A stretch of DNA of 64,000 bases from Flavobacteriaceae bacterium F08102 (GTDB taxonomy: Bacteria > Bacteroidota > Bacteroidia > Flavobacteriales > Flavobacteriaceae): NCBI GenBank assembly GCA_023015935.1, contig JALKAY010000008.1:62001-126000 (forward strand). The letters run 5' to 3'. Under the pieces are notes generated by a model. That model searched no databases and was not told where the DNA came from. It worked only from the letters and a program-made list of their open reading frames with translations. The position numbers and the translations under genes were made by a program. Position 1 is the first letter of the stretch. Each line of letters starts with the position of its first letter. Positions 835 through 20,408 of this stretch are shown here, piece after piece.

Positions 835-3800
835 ATGGAAAATAAATTTATGAACACTTTTTTCTTTAGAAGAAGGAAGCTATTCAAAACGCTTATGAAG
901 ACCTTTATCTTATTATTTTGCACTTCGGTTTTTAGTTTTTCGGCAGAAAATCTACTCTCTCAAAATGTAAAAATAAAATTCGAAACGGACAGAACACTGT
1001 CTATTGATGAGGTTTTTGACGTTATAAAAAATCAAACTGATTACACGTTTATTTACCGGTCAGACCTCTTTAAAAATTCTCCAAAAATTTCTGTAAAAAA
1101 AGGCGTTATTAGAGCCAATAAATTATTGGGGTATACCTTATCTGGCTATAATTTAAAATTTGATATTTCAAAAAATAACACCATTGTCATTGAAGATGAC
1201 AAGCAGGTTATCGAAAATCGAAAATTGCGTCAGCAACCAATTACAGGGAAAGTTATAGATGAATATGGAGAACCTATGCCTGGTGTTGCTATTATCCTCA
1301 AAGGTACCACCATTGGTACTACTACTGATTTTGATGGAAATTACAGTATCAACGCAAAATCAGGAGATGTTCTTGTAGTTTCATTTATAGGATACAATAC
1401 CCAATCTATTCCAGTTAAGAATGATATGGTAATCAATATTGCCATGACAGTTGACTTGAACCAGCTAGAAGAAGTCGTGATCTCTACTGGATATCAAAAA
1501 ATCTCAAAAGAAAGAGCTACAGGTTCTTATGAAACTGTAGCAAAAGCCCAACTTGAGAAACCATCTTCAAGTATCGCCGAACGTTTAGTTGGGATGGTTG
1601 CCGGGGTTCAAACTACCACAAATGCAAATGGAAACATAGAATTCCAAATTCGTGGAAAATCGAGTTTATTTGCTGATGCACAACCTTTAATCGTATTAGA
1701 TGGTTTTCCTATTGAAGGTGGTTTTGAAACCATTAACCCTAATGATGTAGAAAGCATCACCGTATTAAAAGATGCTGCCGCAGCCTCTATTTGGGGAGCT
1801 AAATCAGCCAATGGTGTAATTGTAATTGTTACCAAAAAAGCAAAAAAAGGAAGAACAAATGTTTCTATTTCGTCATTTGTGAAAACTTCAAGTAAATTGG
1901 ATTTAGACTATGTCTTGAGTAGAGCAAACGCTGCAGAAACCATGGAATATGAACAACGTGCCTTTGACTCTGATTTCTTTAAAGGGTTAATTGGTGGTCC
2001 ACCAGATGTAGGTAGAAACTACATTAGAAGACCCTATTCGCAAGCCATTACAGCCATGAACGAAGCGAGATTAGGGCATATAACAGCAGCCGAAAGAGAT
2101 GCAACATTGAATCGACTAAGAGGCTTAGATAATACAAGTCAAATTGAAGATTATCTTCTTGCTGTACCATTGACTAAGCAATACAACATCAATATTTCAG
2201 GGGGAAATGAAAAAATGACCAACAGTCTTTCTTTATTGTTTGAAGATAGCAATACCTATTTTCAAGGGGATGACTCAAAGAAATATTTATTAAACTATTC
2301 AAATAGTGTTAGCCTAGCAAAACCTCTTCGTTTTGATTTTGGAGCGATGATGCAATTAAATGATATTACGACTAATTCAGGTAGCAATATGTTAGGTACG
2401 ATCAGATCTTTAGCACCCTGGGATATGTTGGTAAATCCAGATGGAAGTTTAACAGATATGTCTTACTTGAACTATTATATGCCTAATTTTAATGCAGAAG
2501 TTCCTCGAGAGAGTTTCCCTTATGCAGACTGGTCATATAACCCAATCACTGAGATTAACAATCAAGACCGTAATACGAAGCGTATCAATGCACGTGTACA
2601 GGCTGGTTTAACCTTAGATATACTCGATGGATTAAAAATCTCTTCAAAAATTCAATATGAATTAATTGACACCCAGGTGAATAATTATTATAATGAAAAC
2701 ACCTTTTTTGTACGAAAATTTGTCAATGAGTATTCTGGACCAGAATGGCAAGATGGTGGAATTCCAACACAACTTGTTCCAAGTGGTGGAATGTTAGATC
2801 AAAGTAAAAATAGTGTTACTGCTTATAACTTTAGAAATCAATTAAACTTTGATAAGATATTTGCAGACAAACATCAAATAAATTTTGTAGCAGGTACAGA
2901 AATTTCAAATCGCGTTTTTGAATCTACTAACTTTCCAAGAGCCTTTGGTTATGATAGAGAAACTTTGGAGAGTAGTCCAATTTTAGGAGATGAATTAAGT
3001 GGACAAACCTGGTTCAAAGGAAGAACTAACAGTAGTCTTTTACGTGGTCAATACTCATTTTCTGAAAACACGGTACGTTTTTTCTCCATGTATGGTAATT
3101 TAGGGTATACCTATAATAACAAATACACCATTACGGGTAGCTATAGAACAGATGCCTCTAATGTTATTTCAGAAGATCCAAAATATAGATACAACCCATT
3201 CTGGTCAGTAGGATTTGGCTGGCAATTAGGAAAAGAAGATTTTATGCAGGATGTAAATTGGGTTGATCGTTTAACGGTTAGAGGGACGTATGGTGCGAAT
3301 GGTAATATTGATCGTTCAACATCATTTAAACCCTTAATTAATTTAGGTTCTGCGGTAGATAATGTAACGGGCGAAAACACGGCTACAATTTCGAGTTATG
3401 GAAATCCAACCTTACGCTGGGAAAAAACATATTCAACCAATGTAGGAATTGATTTCTCTTTATTTAATAGAGGTTTATACGGAACCATTGATGTATATCA
3501 TAAAAATGGAATCGACCTCATTGTAGATCAGTCTATTTCAGCTGTCAATGGTACAACCAGTCAAAAATTCAACAATGGTGAAATGGTGAATAAAGGTGTT
3601 GAAGTAACGTTAGGGACTGTTTTACCGATTAAAGGAGATGATATTGTATGGTCAGGTAGTCTTAACTATGCCCATAACGATAATAAAATTACAAGCTTCT
3701 TTAAATCAAGCTATCAATCTTATGATTTATATGGTGGACCAACAAGATCTTATGTTGAAGGAGAAAATGCAAATTCATTATGGTCATATGTATATACAGG

Positions 3801-6071: not shown

Positions 6072-7274
6072 ATGAAATTTTCAATAAAACAACTCTCCAT
6101 TATTACTCTTATCACCTTTTCTTTAACGTCGTGTCAAACTGCAGAAAAAAAAACAGGAAACAATGGAATCTACACCGTTATAGGTGAAATCAAAGGGCTT
6201 AATGGAAATTTATATTACCGAAATCCAGAAAAACAATATACCAGAGAATACCCTTCTGATTCAGTCATTGTAACCAACGGTAAATTCTCATTTACCGACT
6301 CTATTTCAAAACTTACTTTACTTCGATTTTACACGAACTTAAGATCTAAAAAAGACCATCTTTACAAAATTGCTAAAGGAGGCGGGTATTATCCTGTAAA
6401 ATCCATGTACCTAATGCTTTATGCATTTCCTGGAGCAAAGATAACCGTAACCGGAGAAGCCACCGACTTTATGAATGCCTACCCTAGTGGAGACGTATAT
6501 AACGACGGACTTGCAGAAATCAATAAACTCATTTTTCCAACCATCAACCAAGCTGCGAATTTATCGGTTAAGGCCTCTTTTGAAACTGACGAAATTAAAA
6601 TTCAACAACTTAAAAAACAAGCCGACAGTATAAATTCACTTGGCCAAGCTGCACAATTAGCCTACATAGAAAATCACCCTAATTCCTTAGCTGCACTTTG
6701 GTATTTAGAAGATATGATTATGCGACGACAAATATCAGACGAAAAGGCCACCACGATTTTCCATAACTTTTCTAAAGATTTAGCAACTACAGAAACCTAT
6801 GGCAGTGTCGCATCAAGAATTAAAGGAATTGAAGCTACTAAAGAAGGAATGCCAGTTCCTACCATTAAAACTAACGCTACCGTTGATGGAAAAGAATTTG
6901 ATATTAGCTCGTTAAAAGGAAAATATGTGTTGATTGATTTTTGGGGAACTTGGTGTGGTCCATGTGTAGCAGAAATGCCACGGGTCAAAGCATTTCAAGA
7001 AAAATATAAAGATCAATTGGTCGTATTGGGAATTAACTCTGGAGATAGCAAAGAGCAAATGGTTAAATTTCTTGAAAAGAATGGATATACTTGGCAACAA
7101 TTAATGAGTGATAAAGCGAATACAAGTGACAATTTTGTCAATCGCTTTAATGTAAAAGGATTTCCAACAAAATTTATTCTTGACAAAGATGGAACGATTG
7201 TAAAACGATATTTAGGTTCTGGAGAAGAAGCTTTCAAGTTATTGGAAGAACTAATGCAAAGTGATTCAAAATAA
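6072..7274 (+). CDS. TlpA-like thioredoxin-fold lipoprotein
   Basis: A 400-residue lipoprotein (lipobox LTSCQ, Cys21). The N-terminal half resembles the DUF4369-type domain common in Bacteroidota TlpA proteins (VIGEIKGLNGNLYYRN). The C-terminal third is an AhpC/TSA-TlpA thioredoxin domain with WGTWCGPC (Cys295 and Cys298) and the cis-proline segment GFPTKFILD. Family members are envelope-anchored thiol-disulfide oxidoreductases. It follows a susD terminator, and a second homologous gene lies downstream. Location beside a SusCD pair is common for this family, but the redox client is unknown. A different frame opens at 6002, but it lacks the lipoprotein signal and is not used. Confidence 0.88.
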   Translation: MKFSIKQLSIITLITFSLTSCQTAEKKTGNNGIYTVIGEIKGLNGNLYYRNPEKQYTREYPSDSVIVTNGKFSFTDSISKLTLLRFYTNLRSKKDHLYKIAKGGGYYPVKSMYLMLYAFPGAKITVTGEATDFMNAYPSGDVYNDGLAEINKLIFPTINQAANLSVKASFETDEIKIQQLKKQADSINSLGQAAQLAYIENHPNSLAALWYLEDMIMRRQISDEKATTIFHNFSKDLATTETYGSVASRIKGIEATKEGMPVPTIKTNATVDGKEFDISSLKGKYVLIDFWGTWCGPCVAEMPRVKAFQEKYKDQLVVLGINSGDSKEQMVKFLEKNGYTWQQLMSDKANTSDNFVNRFNVKGFPTKFILDKDGTIVKRYLGSGEEAFKLLEELMQSDSK

Positions 7275-7427
7275 AATGCGTTTTCATTTATATTCATTTT
7301 AATATCTAAACATATTAACCTACCTTAACAAGGTAATAAACAAAATACTGAACTCCAATTAATCATGAAAATTCCCTTAGAATTCATAGTCTTCCTATTA
7401 TAAAAACAACAAAAATTGAACCGTCCA

Positions 7428-8630
7428 ATGAAAAATTTATCACCTTTTTTAATAGCCGTAATCCTGGTACTTACCACGTACAGTTGCCAAGAAAAAGATT
7501 CTGCTGAAGCAGGTTTTACTATTGATGGAACCATTAATGGTTTAGATCAAGGGTGGGCCTATCTCTTCGCTAACAATTTTACCGATAGAACAAGTAATAC
7601 TCTTTTAGACAGTACTAAAATTGAAAATGGAATTTTTCGATTTAGCGGAAGAATAGCACACAGAGATATGGTTTATATACGACTTAATAATAATTACACC
7701 GGACGTTTCTTCATAGAAAACAGTCCCATAAAATTAAAAATCGATCTCGATAAAGCAGATAAATACGGTGAATTTGAACCAGAAGTTTATGGTTCTAAGT
7801 CTAATGACAGTATGAAAATAGCTGCTGCGCAATTAAATAAAGTCTACAGGGCTGAAAAATACAAGGTACTCGATGAGACTAGAGAAGCTTTTCAGAAAGC
7901 TAGACTGGAAAAAAACGACAGCCTGATAGAAGTTTTTAGACAAAAAATGTCAAATCCAACCTATAAAAGGTTGAGTGTTGAACGTCAAAAAGAATTCAAA
8001 GCAGCCAAAATTGCATACATGATGGCACATCCTAACTCACCAATCGCGATTAATATCTTAGGATTTCAATTTAGCGAAAGTCGTATGAACAAAGAAGAAA
8101 TGGAAAAAATGCTCGACATCATTGGTGGAGATGCAAAAAACACCGCTTTTTATGACTATTATACTACTACGTATGACCAAATATATAAATCATTAGGAGT
8201 TGGAGCCACAGCGCCAGATTTCACTTTAACAAAACTTGATGGAACCCCGCTTACACTTTCTAAAGTGGATGCTAAATTTAAACTTGTTGATTTTTGGGCA
8301 AGTTGGTGTGGGCCCTGTCGCGCTTCTTTTCCGCACTTAAAAGAACTTTATAAAAAATATAAGAAAGATGGTTTTGAAATTGTGGGTATTGGCACTGCAG
8401 ATGAAAAGGAAAAATGGGCAAAAGCCATTGAAGAAGATCAAACACCATGGAATCATGTCTATGACGAAAGTGATAATGAAGGAAAGAACATGTATGGGGA
8501 AATTTCAAAAAAGTACAGTGTCCCTTTTTTACCAACCACATTTTTGGTAGATGCCAACAATTCAATTTTACTAAGAAACCCTAGTCCAAAACAATTAGAT
8601 CTTAAATTAGAAGAACTTTTTGGACATTAA
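7428..8630 (+). CDS. TlpA-like thioredoxin-fold lipoprotein, second copy
   Basis: A 400-residue paralogue of the preceding gene. The start is placed at the ATG at 7428 rather than the in-frame TTG at 7416, because the signal peptide then reads MKNLSPFLIAVILVL with lipobox Cys20 (TTYSCQ). An N-terminal DUF4369-like domain (DGTINGLDQGWAYLF) is followed by a helical linker rich in Lys/Glu. The thioredoxin domain has WASWCGPC (Cys294, Cys297) and PFLPTTFLVD. It probably reduces or isomerises disulfides in envelope proteins. It lies 150 bases after the first copy, so the pair arose by duplication or serves the same redox route as the DsbD gene downstream. Only the CxxC active site supports the chemistry. 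Confidence 0.88.
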   Translation: MKNLSPFLIAVILVLTTYSCQEKDSAEAGFTIDGTINGLDQGWAYLFANNFTDRTSNTLLDSTKIENGIFRFSGRIAHRDMVYIRLNNNYTGRFFIENSPIKLKIDLDKADKYGEFEPEVYGSKSNDSMKIAAAQLNKVYRAEKYKVLDETREAFQKARLEKNDSLIEVFRQKMSNPTYKRLSVERQKEFKAAKIAYMMAHPNSPIAINILGFQFSESRMNKEEMEKMLDIIGGDAKNTAFYDYYTTTYDQIYKSLGVGATAPDFTLTKLDGTPLTLSKVDAKFKLVDFWASWCGPCRASFPHLKELYKKYKKDGFEIVGIGTADEKEKWAKAIEEDQTPWNHVYDESDNEGKNMYGEISKKYSVPFLPTTFLVDANNSILLRNPSPKQLDLKLEELFGH

Positions 8631-9444: not shown

Positions 9445-11454
9445 ATGAAAAATCGAATCATTCTTACCCTTCTTGGGGTACTATGCTTTTCTATTAGTCA
9501 AGCCCAATTAGTTGATCCTGTAAAATGGACTACTTCCGTTGAAAAAGTAAAAGATAACAATGGAAATATCGTAAAAGATCAGTACATTTTAGTTGCTACA
9601 GCAACGATGGAGGGCAACTATCACATGTACTCTCAAAACATAGATGGAGAAAATCCAATACCAACAACATTTATTTTCGACACAAATTCCGATTATGAAG
9701 TTATTGGTAATACACTCGAAGAAGAGGGACATACCGAAAAAGTACCTGTGTTTGACAACAGAGAAATTAAATACTTTGCAGGAACGGCCAGTTTCAGACA
9801 ACAAATTAAAGTATTAAATGATGAACTCTCTGTAATCAATGCCGAAGTTGAGTATATGGCATGTGATGATACAAGTTGTACACCACCAACGATTAAAGAC
9901 CTAGTCTTTACCATTAAAAGTGGTGGTGCAGCAAAGGTTGATGCACAATCAGATGAAGATGCTAGAATTGAAGCTGCTACGGCTTCAGGTGACGACATGG
10001 ATTCTGATAATTCTAACCGAAGCCTTTGGGCTATTTTTATTATCTCCTTTCTTTCTGGATTTGCAGCCTTGTTAACACCTTGTGTTTTTCCAATGATTCC
10101 AATGACAGTAAGTTTCTTTACCAAACAAAGTAAAACAAAAGCTGCAGGAATTAAGAACGCAATTATTTACGGACTTTCTATCATCATTATTTATGTATTT
10201 TTAGGATGGATTGTCTCACAAGTGTTTGGAGCAGATGCACTTAATGCCTTAGCAACTAATGTTTGGTTTAACACCATATTCTTCCTATTACTTATTATTT
10301 TTGGGGTATCTTTTTTAGGTGCCTTTGAAATCACCCTACCGAGTTCTTGGGGAACAAAAATTGATAACCAAGCCGATCGTGGAGGAATCATAGGAATCTT
10401 TTTTATGGCGCTAGCTTTGGCAATTGTATCCTTTTCATGTACAGGTCCTATCGTAGGAACTTTATTAGTAGAAGCTGCTTCTAAAGGTGGAATGGCACCC
10501 CTCATTGGGATGTTCGGCTTTTCTTTAGCCATTGCCCTACCCTTTACTTTATTTGCCGCTTTTCCTGGATGGTTAAATTCTATGCCAAAATCAGGTGGAT
10601 GGTTAAATACCGTTAAAGTGGTACTCGGTTTTCTTGAAATTGCCTTCGCCTTTAAATTCTTATCTCAAGCCGATTTAGTATTGCAATTGCACTTGCTAGA
10701 ACGTGAGGTGTTTATTGCGATTTGGATAGCTATATTTGGTACCTTAACATTATATCTATTTGGTAAAATTAAATTACCACATGACAGTCCGTTATCGCAT
10801 ATCTCTGTAGGAAGATTAAGTCTTGGACTTATCACTTTATCCTTTACCTTTTATATGATTCCTGGTCTTTGGGGAGCACCGTTGAAATTAATCTCTGCGT
10901 TTCCACCACCACAACATTATAGTGAATCACCATATGGCGTTGGTTTCACCAAGCTTGGCGGAGGCGGAGGTGGTGCCGTGAGTGAAATTCCTGATGGTGC
11001 CCATTTATTACCACCTCATGATATTTTAGCATTTGATGATTATGATAAAGGATTGGCTTATGCTAAGAAAGTTGGGAAACCCGTAATGATAGATTTTACC
11101 GGACATTCATGCGTAAATTGCCGAAAAATGGAAAATAATGTATGGATAGATGAAGGTATCTTAAATATGCTGAAAAATGATGTTGTATTAATTTCCCTTT
11201 ATGTTGATGAAGAAAATCCATTCCCTGAAGGTGTAGAACCACCTGAATCGAAACTTCGTCCTGGGAAGAAATTGAAAACAATCAGTCAAAAATGGGTGGA
11301 ATTACAAACCCTAAAATACAAAACCAATACCCAACCCTTCTATGTCTTAATGGACCACGATGAAGAGAATCTAATCAAACCACGTGGATATACACCCGAT
11401 ATTATGGAGTATAAAAACTGGTTGAAAGAAGGTATTAGTAATTTCAAAAAATAA
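9445..11454 (+). CDS. dsbD: Thiol:disulfide interchange protein, DsbD family
   Basis: A 669-residue three-part reductase. A signal peptide (1-20) is followed by the alpha domain (about 21-160, cysteine pair MACDDTSC). The membrane core has eight or so helices with the paired redox cysteines Cys213 (TPCVFPMIP) and Cys332 (SFSCTGPIVG). The C-terminal thioredoxin domain has GHSCVNCRKM (Cys556, Cys559). The protein carries electrons from cytoplasmic thioredoxin across the inner membrane to envelope thiol proteins, plausibly the TlpA lipoproteins encoded nearby. A glycine-rich linker near residue 510 precedes the C-terminal domain. A clear terminator follows the gene. Confidence 0.93.
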   Translation: MKNRIILTLLGVLCFSISQAQLVDPVKWTTSVEKVKDNNGNIVKDQYILVATATMEGNYHMYSQNIDGENPIPTTFIFDTNSDYEVIGNTLEEEGHTEKVPVFDNREIKYFAGTASFRQQIKVLNDELSVINAEVEYMACDDTSCTPPTIKDLVFTIKSGGAAKVDAQSDEDARIEAATASGDDMDSDNSNRSLWAIFIISFLSGFAALLTPCVFPMIPMTVSFFTKQSKTKAAGIKNAIIYGLSIIIIYVFLGWIVSQVFGADALNALATNVWFNTIFFLLLIIFGVSFLGAFEITLPSSWGTKIDNQADRGGIIGIFFMALALAIVSFSCTGPIVGTLLVEAASKGGMAPLIGMFGFSLAIALPFTLFAAFPGWLNSMPKSGGWLNTVKVVLGFLEIAFAFKFLSQADLVLQLHLLEREVFIAIWIAIFGTLTLYLFGKIKLPHDSPLSHISVGRLSLGLITLSFTFYMIPGLWGAPLKLISAFPPPQHYSESPYGVGFTKLGGGGGGAVSEIPDGAHLLPPHDILAFDDYDKGLAYAKKVGKPVMIDFTGHSCVNCRKMENNVWIDEGILNMLKNDVVLISLYVDEENPFPEGVEPPESKLRPGKKLKTISQKWVELQTLKYKTNTQPFYVLMDHDEENLIKPRGYTPDIMEYKNWLKEGISNFKK

Positions 11455-11691: not shown

Positions 11692-11913
11692 TCAGAGACG
11701 CGTCTTCGTCCGATATTGCTCATTGATAACCTCTAAAATTAAGCCCGGCAATCCGCCGTACTTCGCAGGACCATTACTTAGTGGAATTTCAGGAGTATAC
11801 CATGCCGTGGTAGAAATGATTTTATCCACATCATAATACTCAAAGCCACCACCTTCTTTTGGTTTGGCCCGACGGATAGTTTGAACTTCATCATACGTTG
11901 CTTTATGACAGGT
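11692..11913 (-). pseudogene. GLPGLI-family gene fragment (3' half, broken)
   Basis: Reading the minus strand gives about 70 codons that match the diagnostic end of GLPGLI proteins: CHKATYDEV, then ISTTAWYTPEIPLSNGP, KYGGLPGLILEV. The intact copy at 18106 has the same landmarks (CYKATF, TTAWYTPQIPISNGP, MYGGLPGLILEV). The frame ends early at a TGA shortly after LILEV, whereas intact members continue about 50 residues more. There is no signal peptide or N-terminal half; the frame runs instead straight into a C39 peptidase fragment. It is best read as a deletion-derived relic. The stretch 11518-11691 shows nothing else recognisable. Confidence 0.85.
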
Positions 11914-12099
11914 ATGAAAGCCAATTTTTTCAGCAGCTTCACTTAGACCTAATAGACTACTCCCTTAACGGGTAGTTTCAGCGTAATCGCGTAGTGGGGC
12001 CGTATGAATAGATTTTCCATAATATTTAGCAATGATTTTTAGGCAGGTCGGGCCACAATCTTTTTGGTCGGCTTGTTTGAAATGAGGAAATTTTAACAA
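11914..12099 (-). pseudogene. Remnant of C39 peptidase-domain ABC exporter (N-terminus only)
   Basis: The minus strand from TTG 12099 reads LLKFPHFKQADQKDCGPTCL, then KIIAKYYGKSI, LRDYAETTR, stop, GSSLLGLSEAAEKIGF. This is the N-terminal C39 peptidase domain of double-glycine leader-processing exporters, with the catalytic Cys in DCGPTC. One in-frame TAA at 11965-11967 replaces the Glu normally found in TTREG, a single-base nonsense change. The remaining domain (catalytic His), membrane part and ATPase are gone: after IGFHT the frame continues into a GLPGLI fragment. The remnant starts 2 bases after the GLPGLI gene at 12102, so the exporter was once co-transcribed with it and with the leader peptide gene upstream. 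Confidence 0.82.
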
Positions 12100-12101
12100 A
12101 A

Positions 12102-12869
12102 TTATCTCTTCAATCCAACAGCTTTCTCGTACTCTTCTAAACTAATTGCTTTGCCCGATTTAGGAGGTTTAATTTTAACAGGCTTAACAGGGTTTAAAAC
12201 AATTTCGGTACAAACCAATTTAAATTCTTTATTAAATTCAATTTCTAAAATTAAGCCTGGTAAGCCACCATAATTCCTTGGACCATTACTTATGGGGATT
12301 TTTGGCGTATACCAAACAGTAGTTTTTATTGTATCTCTATGCGTAATTGTATTAAACCCCCCTTCTCCATCTGGCATTTTATCATCATAAACATATATAT
12401 CAAAAAGTGTTGCTTTATTGCAAATATAGTTTCCTATTTTTTTTATATCAGGTGCTAAACTCCACTCAAATGTTTGCATTGAATCTTTCACTAAAAATTG
12501 TGCACCGTCAAAATCAATTTTATTAATGAATGAACCTTCTTGTAAGTTTTTATAATAAATATCTGTTATATATTGAACATTGTTTTCTTTAAGTTTAAGG
12601 GTGTTAAGTTCTTTGTAAATTGATTCATTGGTAGTGAAAATTAGTTGATATGTCCTTTCATAAAGATTTTTAAAAGAAATTAAGGCATTTTGTAGCAATT
12701 CACGACGTTCAAGACTAGTTTTAGGGTCATTAATGGCATCGTCATATTTTTTCGAATTATATATCCCTTCATAGACAACTTGACCCTCAAAAGATTGAAA
12801 AGCATAATTTTTTTGAGTTAAAATAACTGCTAAGAATGTGAGGCATATTAATTTTATTGAGGATTTCAT
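12102..12869 (-). CDS. GLPGLI family protein
   Basis: A 255-residue secreted protein with a signal peptide (MKSSIKLICLTFLAVILTQ, cut near AFQ). It contains the family signature SNGPRNYGGLPGLILEIEF together with upstream landmarks GNYICNKATLFD and WYTPKIPIS. The family is confined largely to Bacteroidota and has no firmly established function; members often sit next to outer-membrane beta-barrel receptors, as here (15197-17914). It lies downstream of the cysteine-rich peptide gene, separated by a hairpin, and immediately upstream of the exporter remnant. A role in export, folding or immunity of the peptide is possible but unproven. Confidence 0.88.
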   Translation of the reverse strand: MKSSIKLICLTFLAVILTQKNYAFQSFEGQVVYEGIYNSKKYDDAINDPKTSLERRELLQNALISFKNLYERTYQLIFTTNESIYKELNTLKLKENNVQYITDIYYKNLQEGSFINKIDFDGAQFLVKDSMQTFEWSLAPDIKKIGNYICNKATLFDIYVYDDKMPDGEGGFNTITHRDTIKTTVWYTPKIPISNGPRNYGGLPGLILEIEFNKEFKLVCTEIVLNPVKPVKIKPPKSGKAISLEEYEKAVGLKR

Positions 12870-12884
12870 GGATTCACTATTTAA

Positions 12885-12916
12885 AACCTCTTTATAAAGG
12901 ATGATATAAAGAGGTT
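12885..12916 (-). terminator. Hairpin (attenuator-like terminator) between peptide gene and GLPGLI gene
   Basis: A perfect 12-bp stem (AACCTCTTTATA / TATAAAGAGGTT) with an 8-base loop is followed on the minus strand by TTTTAAATAG, 15 bases before the GLPGLI start. Such partial terminators often sit after a small structural peptide gene, so the peptide mRNA exceeds that of downstream genes. That role is inferred. Confidence 0.65.
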
Positions 12917-13038
12917 GTTTATAATTTTAAAATTTCATTTGTAATATAATAAATATTATTAGGATTCCTGGATTTCTAATTGAAACTATACGTAAAGTTT
13001 TAAAATAATAGGCTCAATAACAATCAGAACGTGTATAT

Positions 13039-13230
13039 TTAAGGAAACACATGTGTACACACATTAAAGACCTGCCCAAAATTCGGTTTACATTTTTTGC
13101 ATAAAAGATGATCACATTCACCAGCATTATTGCACCTGGAACCACATTCATGGAAGTTTCCTCCATTTATCTTTTTAAGTTCGTCTTTATTTAAAAACTT
13201 AAGGGTTCTAAGGGTTTTTATTTTTTTCAT
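13039..13230 (-). CDS. Double-glycine leader peptide with six-cysteine core (bacteriocin-like)
   Basis: A 63-residue peptide. The leader of about 24 residues ends LNKDELKKINGG, the hydrophobic-spaced double-glycine form cut by C39 peptidase exporters. The 39-residue core has six cysteines at 29, 33, 39, 44, 47 and 58 (spacing C-3-C-5-C-4-C-2-C-10-C), enough for three disulfides. The neighbouring VKOR/thioredoxin fusion is a fitting disulfide former, and a C39 exporter remnant lies downstream. The spacing resembles small knottin-like inhibitors such as the potato carboxypeptidase inhibitor (C-3-C-5-C-5-C-2-C-6-C), but similarity at this length is only suggestive. Function could be antibacterial, protease-inhibiting or signalling. 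Confidence 0.8.
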   Translation of the reverse strand: MKKIKTLRTLKFLNKDELKKINGGNFHECGSRCNNAGECDHLLCKKCKPNFGQVFNVCTHVFP

Positions 13231-13315
13231 AATTTATAATATTAAATGAATTTTAATTCCCTCTGACATTTAAAGACACCCGAGGTTTATGTCCAACTCT
13301 CGCGAAAAGATATTA

Positions 13316-14953
13316 TTAATTCTGAACTACTTCTTTTTTAACTATGTTACTTTGTCTAATTATAAAATCCTTGTCGTCCAGAAGGTCTTTAATAAAAAGA
13401 ATTAAGTCTTCCCGATCATAAGTGTCAGGGTATTGTTGTTGACCAACAATAAGAGCGGGCGTAAATAACAATTCATTTTTTATATTTTCCTTGAATTGCT
13501 TTTTAAATATTTTTCCAATTTTAGGTATTACTTCAGCTGCACCAAAATTTAAATTCCATTCTTCCATATTTTTAGTGTTAAACCAAATACCCAAGGCATT
13601 CATAAATTTATTTTGTCCTTCTTGAAAATAAATTTCCAGTAATCTATGATGCAAGAATTTTGATTTCTCTTCAGGTTCTTGAAAATTATAATTAAAACGA
13701 ATATTTACCCTAAGGTCATCGGTATATTTATCTAAGATTTTTTCGAGCTGCCCGTGCATCTTAATACAGTGCCCACAAAATGGATTGGTAACCAACGTAA
13801 GTTTTAATTGGGCATCACCATTACCAACATAGATTTCTGAATCTAAAGTGTCATAATTATAACTTTTAGAATCTAGTAATGCCAGCTTAAATAAATCATA
13901 ATTTCGCTTAAAACGTAAAGACGTAATTTCAGATGATTTGAGTCTAAAATATGATTTTATTTTAGGTTTTAACATAAGCCAAACCATAACGACAACTGAA
14001 AATCCAAGCAAAAATGAAAACAAAGAAATGCCATTGAAAACCAATGTTCTAAATGACCCAAAATTTGAAAATGTTACCATTTCTAAAACTAATAGACCAG
14101 CAATCAATAAGCATATGGTACACCATTTCTTTTCTACCTGCCATTGATAATACAATGAATATAGTATCACTGGCAAGCCCAATAATGTGGTGATCAAAGA
14201 ATAGTTAATGAAATTTTCAAAATCATTTGACCTACTCATTAAAAATAACCCAATAAGTTGTCCAAAAAAGAAGATTACGCTTAAATCACTCAAGCCTATA
14301 TTCGAAAATAATTTTGTTCCTTTTGAAGTAATTACAGACTCACAACTCGATTTTAGAGAAGCTCCTGATCCGCATACAGCGGATGCAAATGATGAATCAA
14401 CCCCAAATTCTTGTTTTAAGACCTCAAGGGTTAAAAACACGCCCGACAAGCTCAGAAATAAAATTAACATCGGAGTAATCGCAAATTGCATTGGGATTCC
14501 AACTCCTAAAATTGATAGGAGAATAAAACTGACACCAATAATATAGGGGGTTGCATTTTTTTTTGGAGCAACGATTTCAGTTTTGTCAGTTTGCTCAACA
14601 ACCAAAACAATATTCTTACAGAGGTTTAAAAATTCCGCTTCCGTATAGGATTGCTTTTTGTTTTTCTTTTTATAACTAAATTTGTTATTTATTTTCTCAA
14701 CAAAAGCCAAAAACGGGGCTTCTTTTTCGGCTTGTAAAAGAGCAACAAAACGATCAGGTAAATACTCAATTTGCTCATTCTCTATTTTAACGGCCAGATT
14801 GTCTATTTTAAAAAAACTCAACGTATCACTAAATGCATATAGTGACGGAAAATCGGGATGCGTTTCGACTTGAAATTTAAATTCATCAAAATCAATCTTG
14901 ATTTTTTCCTTTTTCAAATAAGAAATGATAAAGTCAAATTGGTTGGTTTTCAT
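13316..14953 (-). CDS. C39-like / VKOR / thioredoxin fusion, probable disulfide-forming membrane protein
   Basis: A 545-residue fusion. Residues 1-125 resemble a C39-peptidase-like fold without the catalytic Cys (THPDFPSLYAFSDTLSFFKI). Residues 135-330 form a VKOR membrane domain with loop cysteines Cys194 and Cys204 and the active pair CTIC (Cys278, Cys281). The C-terminal thioredoxin/DsbA-like domain has NPFCGHCIKMH (Cys393, Cys396). Known VKOR fusions reoxidise a thioredoxin-like partner with quinone to create disulfides outside the membrane. It lies 85 bases upstream of the six-cysteine peptide and on the same strand, so the peptide is the obvious client. The dead C39-like domain may bind the double-glycine leader; this is inference. 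Confidence 0.87.
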   Translation of the reverse strand: MKTNQFDFIISYLKKEKIKIDFDEFKFQVETHPDFPSLYAFSDTLSFFKIDNLAVKIENEQIEYLPDRFVALLQAEKEAPFLAFVEKINNKFSYKKKNKKQSYTEAEFLNLCKNIVLVVEQTDKTEIVAPKKNATPYIIGVSFILLSILGVGIPMQFAITPMLILFLSLSGVFLTLEVLKQEFGVDSSFASAVCGSGASLKSSCESVITSKGTKLFSNIGLSDLSVIFFFGQLIGLFLMSRSNDFENFINYSLITTLLGLPVILYSLYYQWQVEKKWCTICLLIAGLLVLEMVTFSNFGSFRTLVFNGISLFSFLLGFSVVVMVWLMLKPKIKSYFRLKSSEITSLRFKRNYDLFKLALLDSKSYNYDTLDSEIYVGNGDAQLKLTLVTNPFCGHCIKMHGQLEKILDKYTDDLRVNIRFNYNFQEPEEKSKFLHHRLLEIYFQEGQNKFMNALGIWFNTKNMEEWNLNFGAAEVIPKIGKIFKKQFKENIKNELLFTPALIVGQQQYPDTYDREDLILFIKDLLDDKDFIIRQSNIVKKEVVQN

Positions 14954-15196
14954 AATTCAAACGACCTATAGTTTTGAGACTGATAAAATTATGTGCTATA
15001 TTATATACAGTGGTATATTTTTAGTATATTAAAAGTGTACTTATACTATACTTACAAATGGGCAAAAAATTGTTTATTTGAATTAATCCTTAATCGAACG
15101 TGAAGTTTAAAACAGGTGGTTTAAGAAAATTTTATCATTTACTATGTGATTAAATAAATTGAACGTTGTAAATTTCAAAGGTCAACCAGTTTTATA

Positions 15197-17914
15197 ATGA
15201 GTAGATTTAAAATTTTCTTTTTTTTACTTTTCATCTCTACTATCACCTTCTCCCAAGTCAAAGTAACCGGCATGGTTAAGGACAGCATAGGCAACCCCTT
15301 GAACCTTGCCAATGTGATTGCGGTAAATCAAGACTCAAAAGCGATCGAATCCTACAACATCACCAATGCCAAAGGAGTCTATACATTAAACCTCGCGAAA
15401 AACACGGCATATAAACTCAGTGTGAGTTTTATTGGCATGAAAACTATACAATATGAGCTAACCACCCAAGAAGTTGCCATTAATAAAGATTTTCAATTAG
15501 AGGAAGATGCAGGAGCCTTGGATGAAGTAGCGATAACCTATAAAATTCCCTTAAAGATTAGCGGGGATACCTTAATTTATGATGCTGATTCATTTAAAAA
15601 CTCAACAGATAAAAAATTAGAGGATGTGTTAAAAAACATGCCCGGTTTCGAGGTTACAAAGGATGGAGATATAAAATTTGAGGGTAAAAAGATCACGACT
15701 ATCACCGTTGAAGGAAAACGTTTTTTTGATGGGAGTAGTAAATTAGCTTCCAAAAATATTCCCGCTGGGGTGTTAGACAAAATTGAAGTCCTAAAAAACC
15801 ACGATAACATTTCTCAGCTTAGTGGAGTACGCGATAACAGTGAAAATATCGCCATTAACATAAAGCTAAAGGAAGGGAAAAAGAATTTTTGGTTTGGAGA
15901 TCTTATGGCTGGTGGTGGACCAGATGAACGCTATATACTTCATCCAAAATTATTTTATTACAGTCCTAAAAAAAGCATCAATGTGATCACCGATTTTAAC
16001 AACATCGGGGAAGCACCTTTAAGCGCTAGTGATCTGTCTCGTTTTTCAGGACGGCTTCATCGTATTCATCAAAATAGTGGGACCCAATTTAATGTAGAGT
16101 CCCCGAACACTGAATCGCTATCATTGAGAAATAACCGTGCAAAGGGGATCGATACAAAATTTGCAGCTGCAAACTTGAACGTGGCTCCTACGGGTATCTG
16201 GGATCTAAGTGGCTTCGCCATTTATTCAGGATCTAGAGTTAATACCCAAGAAAACAGTTTTAGGCAGTTTTTTCAATCGGAGAATACACCTAATCCACCC
16301 GACGATGAAAGCATCACAAATAGAGCACATCAAAAAAGTGATATGGGGATTTTTAAAATATCTTCTACCTATAAACCTAATAGTAACAATCAATTAGATT
16401 ATAATGGCTTTGCTCGAATCTCAAAAACAAGTCTCGATAAAAGCTATTTTTCCTCCGTTTTACAAGATATTAACGAAAAAAATACCCAAGATCCGTATAA
16501 AATTACTCAAGGCCTTGATTATTATTACACGCTCAATGAACGCAATGTTTTTGCTTTTGAATCTCAATACCTCCTACAACGTGAAGACCCTTTCTACAAT
16601 GCAATTTTAACGCAACAGAGTATGTTCTCTTTTGCAGATAATTTGGGATTAGATCAAAATCAAGGTTCCTATAATATAAATCAAGACCAATTGGTTAAAA
16701 CCAATAAGTTTGATGCTACCTTAAATTACTGGTATGTGATCAATAGAAAGAGTAACCTGAATTTCACCTTGGGAACACTCTTGAGTGCACAACAATTCAA
16801 TTCAAGTATATATCAAATTCTTGACAATGGCAGTGTCTATGAGTTGAATCCGCCGCAAGGGGACCTAAACAATGATATTAGTTACCATTTTAATGATGTT
16901 TACCTTGGGCTTCATTACCGAATAAAAATGGGTGTGTTTACGATTGCCCCGGGTATTTCGGTACATTCATATCTTTCTAAGAATAAACAATTCAATGCTA
17001 CTTCTCAGTTTGATTTTATACGTGTATTACCGGATTTCAATATGAATATCCAATTAAAAAGTACAGAGACTATTCGATTTGATTACCGTATAAAAACTCA
17101 GTTTACGAATGTCAATCAATTGGCTGAAGGACTCGTATTAAACAATTATAATGCCTTGTATTTAGGAAACCGAGATTTGGAAAATACGTTGGCACATACA
17201 CTCAGCCTAAGCTATACCAATCAGATAAATCTCTTAAATCGATATCGAAATACCACCATAAACGCCTCCGTGAATTATTTAAAAACCACCGAAGCCATTC
17301 GCAACAGTATCGATCCTGAAGGGATTTTACAAGTAGCAACTCCATTCAACTCAAACTTTGAAGATGAGGGGCTGACGGGTAACCTTCAATTAACTAGAGC
17401 TATTTGGAAGTTGAGAGCGGTTGTTGGCGGTGTGTTTTCGTACAGTAAATACGATCAGATTTATGAGAATATTGTAAGTACGAATGAATCATTTATTCAG
17501 TCCTATAATTTTGGATTAAAAACCAATTTTTACCGTGAAAAATTCCCCAACATAGAAGTTGGATATAATCACTCAATAAACACCTACAATCAAGGCTTAT
17601 CTAATCCGAAATACATTACCGACAGTCCGTATGCAAACATAGAGGCAGCGTTCTTAAAAGGATTTATCTTTAAGGCCGATTATGCCTATACGAATTATAA
17701 AAACGAGTCCACTAGTTTAAATACCTACAGTTTTTTAAATGCCAGTTTAAGTTATCAACATCTAAAAAGCCAATGGGAATACAGCCTTACGGCGAGCAAT
17801 TTACTTAATACACGCTCTTTGAATACCAATATGTCAAATGACTTTTTTGTAAGCACTAATCAGTATTTCATCCAACCACGGGTCATCACAATAGGCATAA
17901 AATATAATCTGTAA
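15197..17914 (+). CDS. Outer-membrane beta-barrel receptor-like protein with carboxypeptidase-regulatory domain
   Basis: A 905-residue protein with a signal peptide (MSRFKIFFFLLFISTITFSQ). A carboxypeptidase-regulatory-like domain (KVTGMVKDSIGNPLNLANVI) spans about 21-105, then a plug-like region (DADSFKNSTDKKLEDVLKNM, ITVEGKRFF) about 120-225, and a long beta barrel of the OMP_b-brl type ending in ITIGIKYNL. No clear TonB box was seen. Such proteins are frequent partners of GLPGLI proteins in Bacteroidota, and here one GLPGLI gene follows on the same strand and another lies on the divergent arm. It may carry or secrete the cysteine-rich peptide across the outer membrane, or be its receptor; both are speculative. 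Confidence 0.85.
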   Translation: MSRFKIFFFLLFISTITFSQVKVTGMVKDSIGNPLNLANVIAVNQDSKAIESYNITNAKGVYTLNLAKNTAYKLSVSFIGMKTIQYELTTQEVAINKDFQLEEDAGALDEVAITYKIPLKISGDTLIYDADSFKNSTDKKLEDVLKNMPGFEVTKDGDIKFEGKKITTITVEGKRFFDGSSKLASKNIPAGVLDKIEVLKNHDNISQLSGVRDNSENIAINIKLKEGKKNFWFGDLMAGGGPDERYILHPKLFYYSPKKSINVITDFNNIGEAPLSASDLSRFSGRLHRIHQNSGTQFNVESPNTESLSLRNNRAKGIDTKFAAANLNVAPTGIWDLSGFAIYSGSRVNTQENSFRQFFQSENTPNPPDDESITNRAHQKSDMGIFKISSTYKPNSNNQLDYNGFARISKTSLDKSYFSSVLQDINEKNTQDPYKITQGLDYYYTLNERNVFAFESQYLLQREDPFYNAILTQQSMFSFADNLGLDQNQGSYNINQDQLVKTNKFDATLNYWYVINRKSNLNFTLGTLLSAQQFNSSIYQILDNGSVYELNPPQGDLNNDISYHFNDVYLGLHYRIKMGVFTIAPGISVHSYLSKNKQFNATSQFDFIRVLPDFNMNIQLKSTETIRFDYRIKTQFTNVNQLAEGLVLNNYNALYLGNRDLENTLAHTLSLSYTNQINLLNRYRNTTINASVNYLKTTEAIRNSIDPEGILQVATPFNSNFEDEGLTGNLQLTRAIWKLRAVVGGVFSYSKYDQIYENIVSTNESFIQSYNFGLKTNFYREKFPNIEVGYNHSINTYNQGLSNPKYITDSPYANIEAAFLKGFIFKADYAYTNYKNESTSLNTYSFLNASLSYQHLKSQWEYSLTASNLLNTRSLNTNMSNDFFVSTNQYFIQPRVITIGIKYNL

Positions 17915-18105
17915 TAAATTCTATTTCGCCCCCCTCCTCTACTGTTTTCGATTATTTTATTACGGATAATTCACTTTTTTCAATCGAATGATGATTAAAA
18001 GGTTATTTTTGATAGAATTTTGCTTTTTTATCGCGTATTATCCAATAAACAGGAGGCTTTTAAAAGTAGAAATAGTGTGTAATTGTTTCAATTAATTTTT
18101 TCTAA

Positions 18106-18882
18106 ATGAGAAAGTCCGTTATGCTAATATTCCTTTTTTCACCACTTGGTCTAATAGCCCAAGATTTTCAAGGATATGTCACGTACAAGACTGTGTTTTT
18201 CAGTAAAGGATTCGAAAAAGCAACTAAAGACACTACAAAAACACTTTTACAACGTCAACAATTTGAAGGACAAATACGATTTCTTAAAGCGATGGGAAGT
18301 CAGTATACCTTAATTTTTGATCCCTCCACTTCGATTTATACAGAAAATAAAAAGCTGATGTTGGATACGAAAGGAGTTCCATTAATTCCAGATGATCCTA
18401 AAAAAATATATAAAAACTTAGAAGAAAACTACTATAAGATTAAAATGGATCTTGCGGGGAATCGTTATTTAATTAAAGACTCGTTAAAAACCTATGAATG
18501 GAGTTTAGTTCCTGGTCAAAAAAACATAAAGGGGTTTACCTGTTATAAGGCCACTTTTACGGATGAAGTAGTGGTAGCTTCAAGGCCAAAGCAAGAAGAA
18601 GATGGTAGCTTCACCAATGAGCCTGTTAAAAGAAACGTCATTACCACTGCATGGTACACCCCTCAGATTCCGATAAGCAATGGTCCAAAGATGTATGGTG
18701 GCCTGCCTGGTCTTATCCTAGAAGTTAATTTGACGGGAGGTATTATCGATAATACCTTTTTAGCGACAGACATCGTAATAAATCCAAAGAAAAAGCTAAA
18801 AATAACCGCTCCAAAAGGGGAAAAAGTTCTGACAGAACAAGAATTCAAAAATAAGATTAACCCTAAAAGAAATACCGATTAA
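18106..18882 (+). CDS. GLPGLI family protein
   Basis: A 258-residue secreted protein with a short signal peptide (MRKSVMLIFLFSPLGLIAQ). It has the landmarks FTCYKATF, TTAWYTPQIPISNGP and MYGGLPGLILEV, matching the copy at 12102 and the fragment at 11692. It lies 191 bases after the beta-barrel receptor gene on the same strand, so they probably form a unit. The C-terminus is Lys-rich (PKKKLKITAPKGEKVLTEQE). Function of the family is not established. Three copies in 7 kb point to local duplication within one functional locus. Confidence 0.88.
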   Translation: MRKSVMLIFLFSPLGLIAQDFQGYVTYKTVFFSKGFEKATKDTTKTLLQRQQFEGQIRFLKAMGSQYTLIFDPSTSIYTENKKLMLDTKGVPLIPDDPKKIYKNLEENYYKIKMDLAGNRYLIKDSLKTYEWSLVPGQKNIKGFTCYKATFTDEVVVASRPKQEEDGSFTNEPVKRNVITTAWYTPQIPISNGPKMYGGLPGLILEVNLTGGIIDNTFLATDIVINPKKKLKITAPKGEKVLTEQEFKNKINPKRNTD

Positions 18883-19256: not shown

Positions 19257-20408
19257 ATGAAAAAAATACTAGTAGGTTTGATGGGAATTGCCTTTCTTAT
19301 CAGTTCTTGTCAAGAAACGAAAACGAAACCCGTTTCTAAAAAAATTACCGTAAAGGGACACATCAAATTTGCGGATGCAGACGATCAATTTGGAATTAAT
19401 CTTACGAGAAGAAACGTAGACAACGAATACGAAACGGTCAAAGAAATCACTTTAGACGAAAATAATAATTATCGTTTCGAGATCGAAGTGGATCAACCAA
19501 AATATTACACTTTAGATGTATACAAACAACAACGCGTCGAGTTTTATGCCGATGATGAAGATTTGACTATTGATTTTAGAGGTATTGATACCGCTAAAAT
19601 AAAAATAAAAAACCCTCCACATGTTCACATACAAGGTGGAGTAAAAAACAATGTGCTAAACGCAGTTCATTTTGCTAACTATCAAAATTATCAAGGCATG
19701 ATAGCCGTAGGAAAACAACAGTATAATGCATCCTTATCTAATAGCCAAGCTTGGAAAGATTATGCTGCTGGATTATGGGATGTACTATCCGAAGCACACG
19801 ATCGGGATATAAAGAATCTTATCGCTATGTACAAGGATTATCCTACCGTAATCAAGGTCTTAGAAACCTTAAACTGGAAACGTGATAAAGAGTTTATGAT
19901 GGCCGAGTATGAACGCTTAGCCAATAAATATCCCGAAGACGAATACATTCAAAATTCAGCTTCTAAACTCATTGCTCAAGTCGAAGGATTTGAAAAGACC
20001 AAAATTGGAACGGTGGCTCCAGATTTCACCTTACCTGACATCAATGGAAAAAAAGTAAGCCTAAGTTCAACCCGAGGTAAGTATGTACTCATTGATTTTT
20101 GGGCCTCATGGTGCGGACCTTGTAGAGCTGAGGCTCCTAATGTCCACAAACAGTATGAACTCTATAAAGATAAAGGCTTTGAAGTGGTCAGTGTTTCTAT
20201 CGATAAAAAAATGGATGCTTGGAAAAAAGCTGTTAAAGAAGATAATACTTCTGGAATTTTATTAATCGCTCAGGATTCAAAACAACTCCAGTTGGATTAT
20301 TCTTTTTCTGGAATCCCTTATATGGTCTTATTAGACAAAGATGGCAAAGTAATGGCGAAAAACCTACGTGGTGAAGCTTTAGCTAATAAACTCAAAGAAC
20401 TGTTCTAA
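19257..20408 (+). CDS. TlpA-like thioredoxin-fold lipoprotein, third copy
   Basis: A 383-residue lipoprotein (LISSCQE, lipobox Cys18). The N-terminal half is a beta-rich domain of DUF4369-like layout (VKGHIKFADADDQFGINL). The C-terminal thioredoxin domain has WASWCGPCRAE (Cys286, Cys289) and the cis-Pro segment SGIPYMVLLD. It is probably an envelope thiol-disulfide oxidoreductase fed by DsbD. It stands alone between the GLPGLI locus and a terminator. It might help shuffle disulfides in the cysteine-rich peptide, but TlpA proteins are too common in this group for that to be more than a guess. Confidence 0.88.
   Translation: MKKILVGLMGIAFLISSCQETKTKPVSKKITVKGHIKFADADDQFGINLTRRNVDNEYETVKEITLDENNNYRFEIEVDQPKYYTLDVYKQQRVEFYADDEDLTIDFRGIDTAKIKIKNPPHVHIQGGVKNNVLNAVHFANYQNYQGMIAVGKQQYNASLSNSQAWKDYAAGLWDVLSEAHDRDIKNLIAMYKDYPTVIKVLETLNWKRDKEFMMAEYERLANKYPEDEYIQNSASKLIAQVEGFEKTKIGTVAPDFTLPDINGKKVSLSSTRGKYVLIDFWASWCGPCRAEAPNVHKQYELYKDKGFEVVSVSIDKKMDAWKKAVKEDNTSGILLIAQDSKQLQLDYSFSGIPYMVLLDKDGKVMAKNLRGEALANKLKELF

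Follow-up and report, generated by a model that had tools for sequence, protein, structure and literature searches.

A locus at positions 11692-18882 of the window (by which we mean the whole 64-kb stretch of DNA that was analysed) is probably a decayed copy of a Bacteroidota gene module for the production of double-glycine (GG) peptides with disulfide bonds. At the head of its minus-strand genes lies a gene for a fusion protein in which a C39-like domain without its catalytic residues is joined to a VKOR core and a DsbA-like domain. This combination of a putative pseudo-protease docking domain with a VKOR machine is new relative to the initial annotation of the locus.

Layout of the locus

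Every part named in the initial annotation was found at 11692-18882 in the open reading frame (ORF) list and by Pfam and NCBIfam searches, and the family assignments agree with it. On the minus strand, the order of transcription runs from a 545-aa fusion protein (14953-13316; Pfam VKOR, 3.7e-11, and Thioredoxin_4, 1.4e-7) through a 63-aa GG precursor (13230-13039; an ORF with the GG-leader pattern) and a GLPGLI protein, here called w1 (12869-12102; TIGR01200, 1.2e-45; with a signal-peptide-like start and a modelled fold resembling those of LolA and RseB), to the remnant of an exporter C39 domain (11908..12099; Pfam, 2.6e-9; 44 aa open at 12099-11965) and a 3′ piece of another GLPGLI gene (11692..11940; TIGR01200 match at 11713-11940), which the start given in the initial annotation also covers. 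On the plus strand, divergent from the fusion, lie a 905-aa outer-membrane barrel (15197-17914; Pfam CarbopepD_reg_2, a CarboxypepD_reg domain, and OMP_b-brl_3) and, 191 bp behind it, a further GLPGLI protein, w2 (18106-18882; TIGR01200, 3.7e-43).

A search for terminator-like sites found five, against 4.6 expected from shuffles; these include a 12-bp inverted repeat between the peptide and w1 (12885..12916, not assigned to a strand), which may be a chance occurrence. GC content is 0.28-0.32 in 1-kb intervals from 12.0 to 15.5 kb and 0.34-0.38 in most flanking intervals, with 17.5-18.5 kb as an exception at 0.32. Thiol-redox genes were also observed on both sides of the locus, namely a DsbD-like gene (9445-11454) and an AhpC/TSA-type, TlpA-like gene (19257-20408), both recognised by Pfam, and two further ORFs within 6072-8630 appear thioredoxin-like on reading their sequence.

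Domain structure of the fusion protein

The fusion begins with a pseudo-C39 domain (residues ~1-122), has six hydrophobic helices with a VKOR core at ~158-302 (Cys 194, 204, 278 and 281), and ends with a DsbA/ScsC-like domain (~360-530) that carries CGHC at 393-396. Its AlphaFold model (pLDDT 89) consists of three known parts. The N-terminal domain adopts the C39 fold, with matches to the C39 domain of PCAT1 (Z 14.0), to a leader-bound GG-protease (Z 12.8) and to the ComA protease (Z 12.4); the core matches VKOR at Z 13.9, and the C-terminal domain matches DsbA/ScsC at Z 15.9. Among sequence searches, Pfam gave no C39 match for the N-terminal domain, and phmmer with the VKOR core found no match in the PDB; the four-helix core, the loop Cys pair and the CXXC motif that characterise the VKOR family are all present. 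When 46 fusion N-terminal domains were compared as a profile with 50 exporter C39 domains, the match had 94% probability (E 2.5e-8), so that by fold and by profile comparison the N-terminal domain is a C39 domain.

The catalytic residues of this domain have been lost. The catalytic Cys is absent, 32/46 N-terminal domains have no Cys at all, and none of the alignment columns of the 46 domains shows a conserved His at the catalytic position, the sole His column above half being located elsewhere. Six Cys are invariant in 46/46 aligned fusions, and the window's fusion retains all six.

The fusion recurs with GG peptides and C39 exporters

We found the fusion in 11/60 nearest-relative genomes (the source genome included), in 67 loci of named Bacteroidota records, in 42/395 genomes of a phylum sample (E 1e-15 or better) and in 18/100 genomes of family f5, with some of the matches in the phylum sample and in family f5 being partial. 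Family f5 is taken as Weeksellaceae, since its locus L224 falls inside the Chryseobacterium clade on the VKOR tree. An intact version of the window's locus was not found, and the nearest fusions are ~36% identical. The 67 loci, and a second set of 20 further fusion loci drawn from the matches in the phylum sample and family f5 (L227 holds the same protein as L093; 39 other such loci lie outside the counts), were compared with 80 sampled GLPGLI loci and with 20 control regions placed by hand in 15 sampled genomes, one of these regions containing a VKOR fusion and another a barrel paired with GLPGLI. The VKOR fusion in the control set lies at L202:18594-20000 (genome G192), and L238 shows it together with a second one 2 kb on.

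By a strict count, exporters with the C39 motif are present at 29/67 and 13/20 fusion loci, compared with 0/20 controls and 1/80 GLPGLI loci. A looser count, which admits some ABC proteins without the C39 motif, gives 34/67 and 13/20 fusion loci, 1/20 controls and 2/80 GLPGLI loci. HlyD is found at 27/67 and 12/20 fusion loci and at 0/20 controls, and GG peptides with at least two Cys at 28/67 VKOR loci, 0/20 controls and 5/80 GLPGLI loci. More than half of the 67 fusion loci thus lack an exporter by the strict count, and 39/67 lack a Cys peptide by the pattern used; at some loci, short contigs and the strictness of the pattern account for the missing genes. Together, the 87 loci and the window contain 64 distinct matches to the GG pattern, a few of which are likely false (such as a ribosomal-protein-like ORF in L066 with 0 Cys). 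At least two core Cys are present in 55 of the matches, and the number of Cys is even in 43/55.

Among same-strand neighbours within 4.5 kb at the 87 loci, clustered and named by the Pfam matches of their members except for 'TlpA-like', which is a local profile, the most frequent are the C39 exporter (41), HlyD (31) and TlpA-like proteins (20), followed by DUF6625 (19), GLPGLI (11) and DUF6734 (7). The DUF6625 and DUF6734 proteins that recur beside the fusion (for example L059:12337-13527 and L042:11654-13015) are possible peptide modification enzymes. These counts support the view that the fusion, Cys-rich GG peptides, the C39 exporter and HlyD form a recurring Bacteroidota module, and thus the association of peptide, disulfide-forming fusion and exporter that had been proposed from this single locus.

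Peptide and exporter remnant in the window

The precursor in the window has a 24-aa leader, ending ...LNKDELKKINGG (GG), and a core of 39 aa with six Cys; it is the sole match to the GG-leader pattern in the whole 64 kb. Its matches to known precursor families stay below the cut-offs, with 18.5 bits against a curated 25 for TIGR04149, the radical-SAM-modified RiPP precursor family (E 0.0013), and 0.0095 for Bacteriocin_IIc in Pfam. No full-length homologue of the peptide was found in 199 family genomes; 6 others match it, mainly in the leader and at E 1.8e-4 or weaker.

Of the exporter's C39 domain, ~60 residues remain, with 76-79% identity to the best-matching exporters, and the rest of the gene is missing. 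After one internal nonsense codon, the frame runs straight into the GLPGLI fragment, so that the C39 and TIGR01200 matches share some positions where the two pieces meet. Searched genome-wide, the C39 domain was recovered in the window's remnant only, and no substitute exporter of this kind turned up. As the remnant is broken and is the genome's sole C39 match, the exporter is dead here: in this genome it is a pseudogene. The peptide therefore probably no longer leaves the cell by its own route.

GLPGLI proteins near the fusion

Both w1 and w2 exceed the curated cut-off of TIGR01200 (156.1 and 147.9 bits, against 50), and matches to the family occur in 43 of 148 genomes sampled from the phylum, 36 of them above the cut-off. 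At the 80 sampled GLPGLI loci, of which 23 come from two genomes of family f5 (G053 and G040), the VKOR fusion is never present (0/80), but at 51/80 a same-strand barrel is found no more than 300 bp away. The pairing with the barrel is uneven, with 51/57 loci outside these two genomes and 0/23 inside them, and four of the five loci with a Cys GG peptide belong to one f5 genome. It follows that GLPGLI is a family of its own, for which the barrel is a common partner outside family f5.

Seen from the side of the fusion, the relationship is different. GLPGLI genes lie within 10 kb of it at 9/50 loci, when 0.95 are expected from 197 GLPGLI genes, and 0/200,000 simulated sets reached nine linked loci; this null model used the 50 of the 67 VKOR loci with the longest flanks and rounded genome sizes, left the window outside the count, and scored GLPGLI by a local profile, which TIGR01200 confirmed at L043, L059, L074 and for the four genes of L103. 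Seven of the nine linked loci are from Weeksellaceae (7/9 loci of Weeksellaceae), and five of these seven have near-identical neighbourhoods; outside Weeksellaceae the count is 2/41, with 0.44 expected (P 0.07). The GLPGLI gene abuts the fusion at 7/67 loci (L043, L074, L075, L078, L083, L094 and L103) and at 3/20 later ones (L224, L226 and L237, all of family f5). The richest locus, L103 from Bacteroidales, has the fusion and an exporter together with GG peptides, four GLPGLI genes and three barrel-like genes; a radical SAM gene (L103:17868-19370) adjoins that for the C39 exporter. On the VKOR tree, linkage to GLPGLI has to be gained or lost five times, four or more of these changes being forced. 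The link between GLPGLI and the fusion is thus real, but it is partial and mostly confined to Weeksellaceae. Of the co-occurrence that the initial annotation had proposed to look for across genomes, the part concerning peptide, fusion and exporter was found, and that concerning GLPGLI was found mainly in Weeksellaceae. Likewise, the proposed place of GLPGLI in a peptide pathway is partly supported by its excess near the fusion and is not supported as a general statement about the family.

Two ways of giving GLPGLI a uniform role in these loci were rejected. A Cys conserved in 92/124 GLPGLI sequences could have made the protein a general redox client, but it is absent from the five aligned VKOR-linked copies of Weeksellaceae. 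Nor is there a single specialised clade for peptide loci, as the VKOR-linked copies are scattered over several places in the tree.

The model of w1 (pLDDT 80) matches the N-terminal domain of PNGase F-II at Z 15.8, and the next matches are RseB (up to 9.9), ependymin-related protein, VioE and LolA (up to 9.0). A fold shared with LolA and RseB demonstrates neither common family nor common function, and from the model it is a fair guess that GLPGLI is a periplasmic carrier or chaperone.

For the window itself, it is quite conceivable, if somewhat short of probable, that the GLPGLI copies are accidental neighbours, that is, local paralogues which spread into a decaying peptide locus. In the sampled GLPGLI tree, w1 and w2 form one clade with a lone copy from the same genome, L009 (SH-aLRT 99), which indicates that the window's GLPGLI neighbours arose from local paralogues, and the fragment behind the exporter remnant is nearest to w2 (61% over 66 aa). 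The same genome also has paralogous barrel/GLPGLI neighbours without a peptide at L010 and L011, and the exporter is dead. What this explanation accounts for less well is the operon-like position of w1, which lies between peptide and exporter and whose stop codon is 2 bp before the presumed TTG start of the C39 remnant; similar placements of GLPGLI also occur elsewhere on the VKOR tree.

The same position of w1, along with the excess of GLPGLI near the fusion, the ten loci in which the genes abut, the richness of L103, the repeated changes on the VKOR tree and the LolA/RseB-like fold of its model, could instead mean that GLPGLI takes an active part in the pathway, alone or together with the barrel, and acts as carrier for the oxidised peptide or for an outer-membrane partner. 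The concentration of Cys GG peptides at GLPGLI loci of one f5 genome, in a family where GLPGLI has no adjacent barrel at any of the 23 loci of G053 and G040, points in this direction too. However, we regard this as rather doubtful, given that the fusion is missing from all random GLPGLI loci, that the figures outside Weeksellaceae are weak, and that the conserved Cys is missing from the five aligned Weeksellaceae copies. Furthermore, in the 10 other genomes nearest to this one, none of the 12 loci has a GLPGLI by phmmer, and the one match that a profile search of these loci gave is weak (E 3.6e-4) and lies at L033's far end.

The barrel was tried as a gene of the peptide module and rejected, since it is not enriched at VKOR loci (2/67 strong and 6/67 weak matches) over controls (2/20 strong, 1/20 weak). 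Its Plug domain remains below the Pfam cut-off for a TonB-dependent receptor (17.0 bits against 23.9). The suggestion that a receptor-like barrel passes the peptide across the outer membrane therefore finds no backing in these counts, and the larger claim of a pathway with GLPGLI and receptor can apply to some lineages at most, with GLPGLI the stronger candidate of the two. Two other arrangements of these genes were observed. One is a protein of Epilithonimonas bovis (L042:6558-8141) in which GLPGLI is joined to a CarboxypepD_reg domain, the type found at the barrel's N-terminus; its locus also encodes a lantibiotic dehydratase and two GG peptides with Cys. The other, in the genome of the window, is a further GLPGLI remnant that contains a stop (L011:9734-13017) and lies next to a different barrel.

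Predicted orientation of the fusion in the membrane

Bacteria are usually assumed to form disulfides in the periplasm, and a disulfide-forming domain in the reducing cytoplasm is unusual. The fusion has one helix more than ordinary VKOR-DsbA proteins, and with six helices the C39-like domain, all VKOR cysteines and the DsbA-like domain come to share one side of the membrane. Within 15 residues of the helix ends, this active-site side carries a mean of 14.2 K+R, versus 1.6 on the other side, with the same direction in 46/46 fusions, which share ancestry; a fixed-loop count gives 17.8 versus 1.3. Among 13 ordinary VKORs from the same phylum, which include near-copies (~8 are independent), the active-site side is charge-rich in 1/13 and the other side is richer in 12/13 when the Cys loop and CXXC are kept on one side. 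The lone exception, at L246 (ORF 1483-1968, minus strand), is a single-domain VKOR with an apparently inverted charge pattern, and it seems to carry an extra first helix.

Under the positive-inside rule, which is statistical, the reversed charge pattern predicts that the active site of the fusion is cytoplasmic, and on sequence grounds it seems to face that side. As leaders exist only in the cytoplasm, such an orientation fits a leader-binding domain, and it would mean that disulfides may form on leader-bound precursors before export. The usual periplasmic location of DsbA-like domains would favour a different reading, in which the fusion works in the periplasm like an ordinary VKOR-DsbA, oxidises peptides after export, and has a C39-like domain that is vestigial or binds something else. 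This appears unlikely, even though PMC12453122 reports a clostridial VKOR-DsbA fusion that rescues disulfide formation in the periplasm of E. coli, for the charge pattern is reversed in all the fusions, the six helices put all soluble parts on one side, and a leader-binding fold outside would be without a target, the leader being cut on the cytoplasmic side. Our tentative view, held at slightly less than even confidence, is that cytoplasm-facing VKOR-DsbA proteins use a dead leader-recognition domain as a dock to oxidise precursors before they reach the C39 exporter (PCAT), and that LolA-like GLPGLI proteins joined this system in several lineages.

Proposed pathway

In the module of which the window's locus is probably a decayed member, the catalytically dead C39 domain of the fusion would bind the GG leader, and the DsbA-like domain, most probably facing the cytoplasm, would oxidise the cysteines of the core. 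The VKOR core would recharge the DsbA-like domain through membrane quinone. The PCAT would then remove the leader and export the folded peptide with HlyD, with an outer-membrane channel for export presumably encoded elsewhere. GLPGLI, which has come to lie next to peptide genes on several occasions, may chaperone the peptide or an outer-membrane partner. What the computation establishes is the linkage of the genes, the domain folds, the lost catalytic residues and the decayed exporter; leader binding, the cytoplasmic orientation, peptide oxidation, the use of quinone and the function of the peptide are inferred from these.

Comparison with known systems

Export of class II microcins and bacteriocins such as colicin V by PCATs resembles the module in its GG leader, and relatives of the window's locus likewise have a C39-ABC exporter and an HlyD-type adaptor. 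What differs here is the dedicated pseudo-C39/VKOR/DsbA fusion and, in the window, the dead exporter, while the activity of the peptide is a prediction. Bacterial VKOR-DsbA fusions, such as those of Synechococcus and clostridia, share the loop Cys pair, the CXXC motif and a fused DsbA/Trx-type domain, but the fusion described here has an extra helix before the core, a pseudo-C39 domain and a predicted inverted orientation. The VKOR of Aeropyrum pernix, in work attributed to Hibender et al. 2017, reportedly acts in two compartments and would be a precedent for disulfide formation in both; we know of no C39 domain or peptide client in that case. GLPGLI proteins (TIGR01200 / Porph_ging) and the N-terminal domain of PNGase F-II are the known counterparts of w1 and w2, by the curated cut-offs and the fold match given above, although w1 and w2 have no glycanase domain and sit beside a barrel or a peptide locus.

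The C39-like domain (CLD) of HlyB is likewise an inactive C39 fold without the catalytic Cys, and PMC8277102 reports that it tethers the substrate; in our case, however, the domain is joined to an oxidase rather than an ABC transporter, and the putative clients have GG leaders. PCAT clusters in Bacteroidales have been described (PMC10352776), and the accessible portion of that paper has no mention of VKOR, vitamin K, thioredoxin, disulfide or GLPGLI. Similarly, PMC4555120 does not mention C39, peptidase or fusion. A VKOR fusion with a C39-type domain was not encountered in the literature searched, which excluded most subscription papers, and in those searched sources, as far as their text was accessible, GLPGLI was not tied to peptides.

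Implications

The GLPGLI family gains a fold class, together with a client that can be tested in some lineages but is not a general one. For genome miners, the fusion may serve as a marker gene, being present in 42/395 genomes of the phylum sample. If this widespread fusion with a leader-docking domain does oxidise peptides inside the cell, it would add an extra step to the biosynthesis of double-glycine peptides.
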